DNA of 64,000 bases from Bacteroidota bacterium (GTDB lineage: Bacteria > Bacteroidota > Ignavibacteria > Ignavibacteriales > Melioribacteraceae), in NCBI GenBank assembly GCA_018818165.1, contig JAHISP010000071.1:282326-346325 (forward strand), written 5' to 3'. Of this stretch, positions 49,817 through 53,132 are shown in pieces; the stretch's first letter is position 1; each line of letters starts with the position of its first letter. The position numbers and the translations under genes were made by a program. The notes beneath the pieces were generated by a model, which saw only the letters and a program-made list of their open reading frames with translations, did not search any database and was not told the origin of the DNA.

Positions 49817-52024
49817 ATGAAGAATTTCCAGACGCTATTAATCACTTCAATTTTATTATTTCTTGTTGGATGTTCTTCTTCGCAAGATATAGTAAATCAA
49901 AAAGCAAATTACATGTATTTTAATCCAGATACTGTTCAATCACATCAGTTCGATACTGGTAAGATGTGGACTTTTGAGGACGCACCAGTTGATTATTTTA
50001 ATAAAACTTATTCATTTAAACCAGATGCAGCTTGGTTGGAGCATGTTCAAAAATCTTCGCTTAAATTTGCAACTTGGTGTTCATCATCATTCGTTTCTGA
50101 AGATGGTTTAATTATGACAAATCACCATTGTGTTGATTTTATTACTGAAAGATACGAGCAAGAAGGTGAAGACCTTCAAAAAAATGGTTTTTACGCGCCA
50201 ACACTTGCAGATGAGCGCAAAGTTCCAAATTTATTTGTTGACCAATTAGTTTTTACAGAAGATGTTACTAAGGAAATATTTGCGTCAATTGATTCAGGTA
50301 AAAATGAAACAGAAAAAGCAAAACTATTGCGCAATAAAGTAAAAGAATTAGAAAAAAAATATTCTGACGAGAAAGGATTAATTTGTAAAGTTACCTCACT
50401 TTATCAGGGTGGTAAGTATTCACTTTATGGATACAAACGCTTCAAAGATGTTAGAGCAGTTTACGTTAACGAAGGACGTATGGGGCTTTATGGCGGCGAC
50501 CCCGATAATTTTACATATCCTCGCTACAATCCAGACTTTGCATTTATGCGTGTTTATGATGATGAAGGAAATCCATTAAAAACTGATAATTATTTCAAAT
50601 TTAGTAAAAACGGTGCTGAAGAAAACGAACCAATTTTTGTTGTTGGAAATCCTGGTTCAACTTTTAGACTTAAAACAATGTCGCAATTAGAATATATGCG
50701 TGATTTTACTTATCGTAATTTAAATTTTTTCACTAATGGAAAAGTAAAATATTATAGTGAATTAATTAAAGAAGATACTGCAAACGCACGAAAGTACGAA
50801 GACCAAATGCTTTTTGTTGGAAATGGAGCAAAAGTTTTCAAATATAGTTATCAGTTTTTAATTGACCAATACTCAATGGCGCGCAAAGCAGATTTTGAAA
50901 AGAAATTTAAAGAAGCTGTTAAAGGCGATGAAAAATTAAACAAACTTTACGGACATCTTTGGGATGGAATTGAAGATGTGAACAATGAATATAGAGAATA
51001 TGCAGCTGAAATTGCGGCTTACACAATTTCAAAAAGAACTAGTTCTGATTATTTTTTAATTGCTCAAGAACTAATCAATTTTGCACGCGAACTTCAAAAA
51101 CCCGAAGAAGAGAGAAGCGAAGCATATAAGGGAACAAAACTTGATTCTACAATTCAAGCTATTTATCCAGAAGATTTAAATGTAATTGAAACCGATAAAG
51201 AGCTTGCATTGCAAGCAGATTATATGATGCTAAATCTTGGTGTAAATAATCCCTTAATGCAAAAGACATTTGGGGGAAATAAAGGTGATGCAGCTGTTAA
51301 ATTTATTAAAAATAATTCTGTAATTACTGTTGCTAGTGGAGTTGAAGCATTAGCAAAAAAAGGAGCTGATGCAATTCTTAGTTCCAACGATTCTTTCATT
51401 AACTTTATTCTTAATACTGAAAATCAGTTGGAAAAATTAAAAGCAAATCAAATGTCAGCTAAGGAAACTGAGAAAGTTTTAGAGAATGAATTAGGTAGGG
51501 CTTTGTTTGAAGTTTATGGAACCACAATTCCACCAGATGCAACATTTACTCCTAGAATTAGTGATGGACAATTGAAAACCTACGAATACAATGGAACTAT
51601 TGCTCCAGTTGAAACTACATTTTATGGGATGTACGATAGATACTATTCGAACGATAAAAAATATCCTTGGGGATTACCAGAACGTTGGTTGCATCCTAAA
51701 GAAGGATTTGATATGAGCACACAATATAATTTTATTTCCACAAATGATATTACTGGCGGTAGTTCTGGAAGTGCGGTTATAAACAAGGAAGGCGAAATTA
51801 TTGGCGCCGCTTTTGATGGAAATATTGAATCAATTCCCGGTAACTATTTATACAATCCTTCAGATAACAGAATGGTTTCTGTGTCATCAAAAGCAATGCT
51901 GCAAATATTAAGATATATTGGTGGTGCTGAAAGAATTGCAGACGAACTTGAAGCTGGTAAAATTCCAGAAAAATATAAAGTTGTTGAAGAAACTAAAGAA
52001 GTAGAAGAAGTTCTTGGTAAATAA
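49817..52024 (+). CDS. S46 dipeptidyl-peptidase (DPP7/DPP11 family), lipoprotein
   Basis: 735 residues with a lipobox (LLFLVGCSSS). Trypsin-like fold with catalytic His in LIMTNHHCVDF, the GGDPDNFTYPRYNPDFAFMRVYD segment and nucleophile Ser652 in ITGGSSGSAVIN. FDGN follows the nucleophile; in characterised DPP7 a Gly near this place goes with hydrophobic P1 preference, whereas DPP11 has Arg, so DPP7-like specificity is inferred. It releases dipeptides from the N-terminus of peptides in the periplasm. A second S46 gene lies 3.3 kb downstream. The GGSSGS motif differs slightly from the usual GGNSGS. Confidence 0.94.
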   Translation: MKNFQTLLITSILLFLVGCSSSQDIVNQKANYMYFNPDTVQSHQFDTGKMWTFEDAPVDYFNKTYSFKPDAAWLEHVQKSSLKFATWCSSSFVSEDGLIMTNHHCVDFITERYEQEGEDLQKNGFYAPTLADERKVPNLFVDQLVFTEDVTKEIFASIDSGKNETEKAKLLRNKVKELEKKYSDEKGLICKVTSLYQGGKYSLYGYKRFKDVRAVYVNEGRMGLYGGDPDNFTYPRYNPDFAFMRVYDDEGNPLKTDNYFKFSKNGAEENEPIFVVGNPGSTFRLKTMSQLEYMRDFTYRNLNFFTNGKVKYYSELIKEDTANARKYEDQMLFVGNGAKVFKYSYQFLIDQYSMARKADFEKKFKEAVKGDEKLNKLYGHLWDGIEDVNNEYREYAAEIAAYTISKRTSSDYFLIAQELINFARELQKPEEERSEAYKGTKLDSTIQAIYPEDLNVIETDKELALQADYMMLNLGVNNPLMQKTFGGNKGDAAVKFIKNNSVITVASGVEALAKKGADAILSSNDSFINFILNTENQLEKLKANQMSAKETEKVLENELGRALFEVYGTTIPPDATFTPRISDGQLKTYEYNGTIAPVETTFYGMYDRYYSNDKKYPWGLPERWLHPKEGFDMSTQYNFISTNDITGGSSGSAVINKEGEIIGAAFDGNIESIPGNYLYNPSDNRMVSVSSKAMLQILRYIGGAERIADELEAGKIPEKYKVVEETKEVEEVLGK

Positions 52025-52039
52025 TTAGTAAGCAAAAAA

Positions 52040-52070
52040 AACTTCCAAGTTGTTAAAAACCTTGGAGGTT
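52040..52070. repeat. REP hairpin 1 (degenerate)
   Basis: AACTTCCAAG (52040-52049) pairs with CTTGGAGGTT (52061-52070), one G-T mismatch. It is a diverged member of the CCTCCGAGG hairpin family around the RAYT gene and is followed by TGGCTTTT. Confidence 0.75.
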
Positions 52071-52082
52071 TGGCTTTTGCAG

Positions 52083-52232
52083 ATTGGGAAATCTCTATAC
52101 AAAAGATTTACTAAATATGAGGCATGGAAAGTTAACAGACATTAACGAGGTTAAATAGTTTTTTCAATCGGAAGAACAAATGGTCAAGTTTTTAACAGAT
52201 AGCAAAATTAAAGTTGATTATGAATTCTAAAA
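52083..52232 (+). pseudogene. Decayed copy of the RAYT 3' end (tail copy 1)
   Basis: Aligns with the last 150 bp or so of the RAYT gene: DW(E) then, after a frame change, LYTKDLLNMRHGKLTDINEVK, an in-frame TAG, and FFQSEEQMVKFLTDSKIKV ending DYEF. It lies between REP hairpins 1 and 2 and cannot be translated as one protein. Confidence 0.8.
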
Positions 52233-52239
52233 ACTAAAA

Positions 52240-52270
52240 AACCTCCGAGGTTTCAAAAACCTCGGAGGTT
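52240..52270. repeat. REP hairpin 2
   Basis: Perfect 13-bp stem, AACCTCCGAGGTT (52240-52252) with its complement at 52258-52270, 5-base loop. Each arm is itself nearly palindromic. It lies 40 bp before the RAYT start and is followed by TGGCTTT. Confidence 0.9.
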
Positions 52271-52309
52271 TGGCTTTAAATTGATTTACCAAAAACAAAA
52301 AGAAATAAA

Positions 52310-52822
52310 ATGGATAAACCAAGAGAATATTACAAAAATACTTATCACCACCTATATAATCGTGGTGCTAACAAAGATGCAATATTTTTTGATAAAGAAA
52401 GCTATCTCTATTTCCTTAAAAGACTAAAACACTATAAAAATGAATTTCAAATAGATGTTTTAGCCTACTGTTTAATGCCAAACCACTTTCACCTTTTTGT
52501 TAAACAGAAAACTGAAGACTTGTTAATTTCCAAATTTATTTCTGCATTGCTTAACTCTTATGTAAAATCCATAAATAAAAAGTTCAATAAAAGTGGTACT
52601 TTATTTCAAAGTAAAACTAAAAGTAAACCAATTACTGATGAACACTATTTTGTATGCATAATAAAATATATTCTTGAAAACCCAGTTAAAGCAAAACTGG
52701 TGAAAAGCATTTCGGATTGGGAATACTCCAATGCAAAAGATTTATTAAACTTAAGAAATGGAAATATAACTGACATTATTGAAGTTAAATCTTTTTTTTC
52801 AATCAGAAGACCAAATGATTAA
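52310..52822 (+). CDS. REP-associated tyrosine transposase (RAYT, Y1_Tnp/HUH), frameshifted tail
   Basis: 170 residues of the IS200-related RAYT group. HUH motif His59-Phe-His61 is in LAYCLMPNHFHLFVK. The likely catalytic Tyr84 is in LLNSYVKSINKKFNKSGTLFQSKTKSK, and C-terminal VCIIKYILENPVKAKLV matches the family. Such proteins cut single-stranded REP hairpins. A run of eight T at 52792-52799 shifts the frame compared with flanking copies, so the protein ends SFFSIRRPND instead of SFFQSEDQMIKFLTDSKIKV-DYEF (which would end at 52865). All catalytic motifs precede the shift, so activity may remain. Flanked on both sides by matching REP hairpins. Confidence 0.9.
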   Translation: MDKPREYYKNTYHHLYNRGANKDAIFFDKESYLYFLKRLKHYKNEFQIDVLAYCLMPNHFHLFVKQKTEDLLISKFISALLNSYVKSINKKFNKSGTLFQSKTKSKPITDEHYFVCIIKYILENPVKAKLVKSISDWEYSNAKDLLNLRNGNITDIIEVKSFFSIRRPND

Positions 52823-52867
52823 GTTTTTAACAGATAGTAAAATTAAAGTTGATTATGAATTCTAAAA

Positions 52868-52898
52868 AACCTCCGAGGTTTCCAAAACCTCGAAGGTT
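52868..52898. repeat. REP hairpin 3
   Basis: AACCTCCGAGGTT (52868-52880) pairs with AACCTCGAAGGTT (52886-52898), one mismatch. It begins 2 bp after the ancestral stop codon of the RAYT tail. Confidence 0.88.
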
Positions 52899-52910
52899 AA
52901 TCTTTGCGGA

Positions 52911-52992
52911 GTAGTTAAATCGTTTTTTCAATCAGACGAACAAATGATCAAGTTTTTAACAGATAGCAATATTAAAGTCGATTATGAATTCT
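52911..52992 (+). pseudogene. RAYT tail copy 2 (detached 3' end)
   Basis: Encodes VVKSFFQSDEQMIKFLTDSN then IKVDYEF and a stop, in one frame, matching the unshifted end of the RAYT gene. It has no start or upstream domain. REP hairpin 4 begins a few bases after its stop, the same arrangement as at the gene itself. Confidence 0.82.
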
Positions 52993-52997
52993 AAAAA

Positions 52998-53028
52998 AAC
53001 CTCCGAGGTTTCCAAAACCTCGGAGGTT
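52998..53028. repeat. REP hairpin 4
   Basis: Perfect 13-bp stem, AACCTCCGAGGTT (52998-53010) with complement at 53016-53028, 5-base loop, then GGTTTTTT. From here to the end of the 5'-nucleotidase gene nothing else is recognised. Confidence 0.9.
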
Positions 53029-53132
53029 TGGTTTTTTGCTGAGGTTTCATTGTCTTTCAATTTTCATGGCAAATGAAATAAACTCTATCAGCGTAAGTCA
53101 TAATAATCATAAAGATCTGCGTTCCTATTTGT

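Follow-up and report, generated by a model that had tools for sequence, protein, structure and literature searches.

Introduction

MITE- and PATE-like elements are internal deletion derivatives of IS200/IS605. Beside e14-type prophages, the 3' end of icd is supplied by the incoming element, and the native end stays behind as a remnant.

According to a section of PMC6006769, Bacteroidetes RAYTs (subclass 2.6) are accompanied by atypical hairpins without GT[AG]G, and a passage of PMC8266576 describes most tnpA-REP/RAYT genes as single copy, with no evidence of mobility. For rhs loci (in the cited part of PMC2935791) and T6SS effectors (in that of PMC5361080), arrays are reported in which old 3' ends have been moved to the downstream side of the intact gene, and the same parts attribute this displacement to recombination with incoming DNA bearing a homologous segment.

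The window, i.e., the whole 64,000-nucleotide stretch of DNA analyzed here, contains a RAYT gene accompanied by REP hairpins and by two detached copies of the gene's own 3' end. The origin of these detached ends was examined in the window, in its genome, and in related genomes.

Materials and Methods

The left and right flanks of 33 RAYT loci were compared with hairpins masked, using 200 shuffles for each locus. Truncated, decayed, or hairpin-less loci (e.g., L127, L132, L141-L143, L152-L154, and L160) were left out of this test. An unmasked comparison gave some repeat in 24 of 35 loci, chiefly hairpins and spacers, and the masked test was used instead. A set of 164 genomes from the order was searched with profiles of the last 55 and the first 55 residues of the RAYT. 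Detached pieces were counted from the match lists, with the contig-end pieces G118:C279 and G161:C36 left out.

Results

Organization of the array

The array follows the order S46 peptidase gene, hairpin A, T1, hairpin B, RAYT, hairpin C, T3, and hairpin D, with a convergent 5'-nucleotidase gene on its far side (Table 1). An earlier sequence-only reading had described four hairpins alternating with three versions of the RAYT tail, and this layout was confirmed by folding and repeat comparison. A hairpin was indeed found close behind the stop of each tail, with gaps of 8 nt (T1), 1 nt (T2), and 2 nt (T3). The further claim that the gene itself constitutes one of the three tail versions held at the DNA level, where T2 is present, but not for the annotated ORF, whose stop lies 44 nt short of hairpin C.

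Table 1. Positions of the array features and of the upstream gene in the window.
Feature	Position	Strand	Basis
S46 peptidase gene, immediately upstream of the array	49817-52024	+	PF10459, 3.1e-166; G004 comparison
Hairpin A, decayed	52039-52071	+	-7.2 kcal/mol; 7/200 shuffles fold equally well
T1, detached decayed RAYT 3' end, ~51 codons, in-frame TAG	52077-52233	+	Repeat comparison, codon comparison
Hairpin B, left hairpin of the RAYT unit	52239-52271	+	-16.8 kcal/mol; 0/200 shuffles
RAYT (Y1 HUH transposase) ORF, 170 aa	52310-52822	+	PF01797, 4.8e-9; NF047646, 73.4 bits
T2, 3' end of the gene itself at DNA level, not in the ORF frame	52785-52865	+	Repeat comparison
Hairpin C, right hairpin of the RAYT unit	52867-52898	+	One mismatch, -10.6 kcal/mol; 0/200 shuffles
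T3, detached RAYT 3' end, 26 codons + stop, frame intact	52914-52994	+	Repeat comparison, codon comparison
Hairpin D	52997-53029	+	-16.8 kcal/mol; 0/200 shuffles

A single hairpin pattern was found at 28 sites of the genome, including A-D of the window, and at none in a reversed control. With respect to the GTAG/GTGG foot of REPs, neither GTAG nor CTAC was present at the feet of hairpins A-D. A candidate fourth, decayed tail after hairpin D was dropped, as its local score was reached by 24 of 2000 shuffles. Seven of 25 scanned hairpin sites fall within long ORFs, in frame and at the same place ahead of a YRLKQ motif (L037 2345, 4960, 7753, and 16940; L038 111 and 1274; L047 1103). These ORFs span 277-1989 aa, some of them truncated where the stretch ends. 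At six of these seven, a VAQISNL stretch is located upstream, which may be a second palindrome.

The RAYT gene and its intact relative

The window RAYT contains a Y1_Tnp domain (PF01797, 36.8 bits against a cut-off of 23), and its HUH motif and tyrosine region were read from the sequence as NHFH and YILENP. The curated cut-off of 80 for NF047646 (REP-associated tyrosine transposase) was missed both by this protein, with 73.4 bits, and by the RAYT on contig C92 of the same genome, with 70.2 bits. The gene is flanked by hairpins B and C, whose family also occurs dispersed in the genome.

At a T run near 52791 (region 52788-52800), the ORF departs from the frame of its relatives, which is why it ends short of hairpin C. 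The departure could reflect a mutation, a base-calling error, or slippage. The RAYT of G111 leaves the frame at the same T run. The C92 copy is intact at 184 aa, with 83% protein identity to the window RAYT, and it is by this intact end that T2 can be seen in the window DNA although absent from the ORF end. A PDB sequence search with the C92 RAYT gave no matches at E 0.01, and no orthologue of the peptidase upstream of it was found in the genus (best 43% identity). On the contig of this second copy, two near-identical hairpin neighborhoods were observed 295 bp apart (L035 1262 and 1557).

Relationships among the tails

Over 84 nt, identity to T1 was 87% for T2 and 93% for T3 in the repeat search, and a further 68 nt common to T1 and the RAYT gene showed 78% identity. 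Pairwise distances were 8/83 for each pair of T1, T2, and T3, and 6, 10, and 11 differences in another alignment. At the few informative sites available, T1 and T3 agreed against T2 and C92 in three of three, as would be expected if both stem from older copies. In the tail tree, T1, T3, and the tails of two other genomes were split from T2, C92, and the tail of a third (77/87), and T1 and T3 did not form a pair of their own. Synonymous to nonsynonymous nucleotide differences over 21 codons were small in number, with 2:3 for T1-T3, 3:3 for T2-T3, and 2:3 for T1-T2.

Distribution of tails and hairpins in the genome

The sequence-only reading had further regarded the tail plus REP, rather than the REP alone, as the mobile unit. 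This was not borne out when the 119-bp unit (52911-53029) was searched against the 4.9-Mb genome. Only 4 of 39 match rows carried the tail (40 of 63 candidates scored), all at RAYT genes, namely T1, T2, and T3 at the window locus and the C92 gene's own 3' end. The other 35 rows were essentially hairpin only, consisting of the hairpin with at most 16 nt before it at 21 further sites and on the reverse strand of B, C, and D, and no dispersed tail units were among them. A genome-wide search with a tail profile returned the same four tails and one weak match (E 0.06). Among 44 flanks of 22 hairpins of this genome (fetched stretches), the C92 gene's own end alone beat all 200 shuffles. In this genome, dispersal was seen for the hairpins but not for the tails.

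About 10 nt resembling the last bases of the tail stand directly before the left hairpin of the C92 copy. A possible tail remnant before the hairpin at C22:95 kb was equaled by 20 of 200 shuffles and was dropped. Across the phylum, the tail search matched 17 of 395 genomes, with no new detached tail among the matches listed. The idea that a gene's 3' end travels along with the hairpin failed as a dispersed module. It holds in a wider sense, for a gene end accompanying the hairpin-RAYT unit, as the second RAYT copy of G048 has about 90 bp of a host-gene end at its left.

The site in a genome of the same genus

The corresponding gap of G004, bounded by the orthologous gene pair, contains one lone hairpin, followed by CTTTTGCA. 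Hairpin A aligns with this lone hairpin, and CTTTTGCA stands behind both, which indicates that the site behind the S46 gene carried a REP in both lineages. Hairpin A probably represents the REP that was resident here earlier. The window RAYT had no match in G004 at E 0.001 (genome 90% complete). Loss of the RAYT in G004 is as possible as its gain in the window lineage, and the lone hairpin could be a deletion product.

In G128 and BMS3Abin04, a repeat starting AACCTTGTATGTT accompanies RAYT loci, and it was also observed at the orthologous S46 site in G002. It is located downstream of the RAYT in L128, upstream of it in L079, and downstream of S46 in L081.

Detached RAYT pieces in other genomes

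Away from contig edges, detached tails were represented by T1, T3, and those of G019 and G001. The G019 unit stands alone and consists of RAYT codons 80-184 between two hairpins. The lone tail of G001 comprises 31 codons, with no REP hairpin on its left side and one hairpin 70 nt past its stop. A tRNA noted by eye beside it was discarded, as ARAGORN found none in that stretch.

Detached heads were also observed. In G128, a 280-bp head is located between two hairpins ahead of the full RAYT, and head plus hairpin repeat nearly in tandem (94% alike, with a period of 288). In G080, a head of about 130 bp including the leader (80%) likewise lies between hairpins. Tail-specific retention was ruled out by these heads, and there was no clear preference for tails among the detached pieces.

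Gene ends repeated across RAYT units

With hairpins masked, a repeat at 0/200 shuffles was found between the flanks of 7 of the 33 loci (the window, L050, L136, L139, L157, and both G048 copies) and of none of the remaining 26. The repeats of L050 and L157 are hairpin spacers. In the window, G076, G090, and both G048 copies, the repeated segment is the 3' end of the upstream gene, which in the window is the RAYT itself. In G076, G090, and G048, the second copy of this end sits just past the right hairpin.

In G090 (L136), 60 bp of the methylmalonyl-CoA mutase end are repeated with two differences, and 19 of 19 codons encode the same amino acid. In G048, a closed genome, two RAYT copies that are near-identical from hairpin to hairpin occur at two loci. 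Both are distantly related to the window gene, have hairpins of a different family, and bear the same in-frame stop. The end of an alpha-2-macroglobulin-like gene is repeated over 30 bp at 1.80 Mb and over 93 bp at 1.86 Mb. At 1.80 Mb, the RAYT copy follows the full macroglobulin gene, and at 1.86 Mb, it has just ~90 bp of the gene end at its left. For the RAYT copies on C75 and C41 of G128, the match starts exactly at the 5' foot of the hairpin, and the C41 copy is decayed.

The RAYT match begins 30-91 nt past the stop of a same-strand gene in 15 of 35 loci, a count that excludes the short repeat ORF of L050 and the truncated L143. The genes comM, mutase, and hisS each recur upstream of RAYTs in two genera. 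RAYTs were seen behind methylmalonyl-CoA mutase in three genomes (L213, L210, and L214) and behind hisS in two (L212 and L215). Since protein identity reaches 81-84% among the mutase-associated RAYTs and 71% among the hisS-associated ones, their recurrence behind these genes is possibly due to inheritance.

The comM array of G076

In G076 (L139), complete comM is followed by a hairpin, the RAYT, a hairpin, a comM end, a KilA-N ORF, a second comM end, a 262-aa ORF, and a third comM end. Dissociated 3' ends downstream of an intact gene, as in rhs-type arrays, were thus found for comM in this genome. The KilA-N ORF is split over two frames, the third comM end is decayed, and the 262-aa ORF gave no Pfam match. 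On the reverse strand of L209 (G076:C320), a comM 3' end copy stands behind each of the single ORFs (RAYT, KilA-N, and 262-aa).

The first displaced end spans about 160 bp and is 88% alike to the attached end. Divergence from the attached end rises along the array, with 9.8, 17.3, and 28.5%. Between the attached and the first displaced end, 15 nucleotide differences were counted in 53 codons, 15 of them synonymous and none nonsynonymous. Counts against the second displaced end were 20:6 and 15:5 (synonymous:nonsynonymous). As a copy free of selection would change amino acids, the all-synonymous differences suggest that both ends evolved as working gene ends, and one of the two was probably brought in from outside, judging from these codons. 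The tree of comM ends was mostly unresolved.

In G128, two 76-bp comM ends, both with in-frame stops, were found, together with a 177-aa comM C-terminal frame farther on the same contig. In G076 and G128, comM ends also stand behind non-RAYT ORFs. A short comM C-terminal frame (166-225 aa) besides full-length comM was noted in G056, G053, G047, G102, and G128, which suggests that insertions at comM are frequent in this order.

Discussion

The reading we favor, to which nearly an even chance is given, is that T1 and T3 were once the 3' ends of older RAYTs and were displaced as recombination recurred at a single spot. A REP hairpin would first have stood directly behind the S46 gene, as seen in the window and in G004, and a RAYT unit would have arrived at that hairpin. 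A newer RAYT may then have recombined in within the RAYT sequence, its right side joining upstream of the old gene's 3' end, so that the old end, T3 with hairpin D, was shifted downstream. This step is suggested by G076, G090, and G048, where the ends of comM, the mutase gene, and the macroglobulin gene, respectively, are arranged alike. T1 would stem from another old copy that kept its 3' end and lost its front part beside hairpin A. The hairpins would have spread separately as REPs, since they occur dispersed without tails. Displacement of this kind requires neither RAYT activity nor a tail and REP moved by the RAYT. Against it, T1 sits upstream of the gene, which is not given by displacement alone, and the clear synonymous signal comes from one locus only, G076. 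The tail tree, which gives no T1-T3 pair, the equal tail distances in one alignment, and the 26 of 33 loci without such a flank repeat also weigh against it.

Local tandem duplication, in which recombination or slippage at the hairpins copied the hairpin-RAYT-hairpin unit and deletions starting beside a hairpin then trimmed one end of each extra copy, with no need for outside transfer, is a serious possibility, although a doubtful one. It fits fragments that have a hairpin at either side (window, G128, G080, and G019), that come from both gene ends, and that in G128 still form a near tandem. The local position of all tails but one in this genome and the equal distances of the three tails in one alignment point the same way. 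However, T1 groups with T3 and not with T2 at the few informative sites, and duplication leaves unaccounted for both the host-gene 3' ends past the right hairpin in G076, G090, and G048 and the all-synonymous divergence of the nearest G076 comM ends.

It is rather improbable that the hairpin-RAYT-hairpin units are integrative cassettes landed by the REP transposase behind stop codons, each carrying or copying the last 60-190 bp of its target, with an older RAYT as the target in the window. If so, displaced gene ends would accumulate as a record of arrivals. Likewise unlikely is an insertion of the unit behind stop codons during which the copy of the target gene's 3' end, as an attachment-like segment, is made or brought along by the RAYT. 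The 15 loci with a RAYT match shortly past a same-strand stop, the recurrence of comM, mutase, and hisS, the near-identical G048 copies at two loci, one of them with its piece of host-gene end, and the match starting at the hairpin foot in G128 are consistent with such insertion. The stop shared by the G048 copies weakens the cassette readings, and, together with the decay of C41, it means that these copies may not have been moved by their own protein. Moreover, comM ends behind non-RAYT ORFs and comM C-terminal frames in many genomes argue that a general process suffices, and the recurrence behind mutase and hisS may be inheritance.

A small non-autonomous MITE-like element of tail plus REP mobilized by the RAYT is highly improbable, since the hairpin before each tail and within 8 nt after it, the G019 unit, the G001 tail with its following hairpin, and the tail-like bases before the left C92 hairpin are outweighed by the confinement of tails to RAYT genes, the detached heads, and the failure of every other tested hairpin flank to beat its shuffles, and the dispersed form is refuted for this genome by match rows, tail profile, and hairpin flanks.

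Near-identical copies in a closed genome, matches starting at the hairpin foot, and displaced host-gene ends may together be read as the trace of RAYT arrival. Displaced ends are also an ordinary source of gene-end and REP pairs that could otherwise be mistaken for a new mobile module.

Compared with MITE- and PATE-like elements, G019, T1, and T3 share terminal hairpins around a shortened gene remnant, but the shortened form lacks dispersed copies in this genome. The e14/icd case is similar in that an incoming element would supply the gene 3' end and leave the native end behind; no integrase was found among the few proteins scanned.

As in REPtrons, in the cited parts of PMC6006769 and PMC8266576, a Y1 transposase gene lies between hairpins of a family that is also found singly genome-wide. 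In contrast to that description, the window genome has two related RAYT copies (83% protein identity) and G048 two near-identical ones, and detached gene ends stand beside the window unit. Because the GTAG foot is absent and one curated cut-off was missed, the window unit is RAYT-like rather than a canonical GTAG REPtron.

With the rhs and T6SS arrays, as described in the cited parts of PMC2935791 and PMC5361080, the comM array of G076 shares the picture of sequential displacement. The ends described here differ in that they adjoin REP hairpins and come from transposase or housekeeping genes, not toxins. Relative to rhs as presented there, the displaced ends of the window are homologous to the present end (tails 87-93% alike), not unrelated to it, and T1 lies upstream of the gene. 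T3 with hairpin D lies downstream of the RAYT, whose own frame is altered. By analogy, the window tails would behave as displaced rhs tips do, while standing outside that system.
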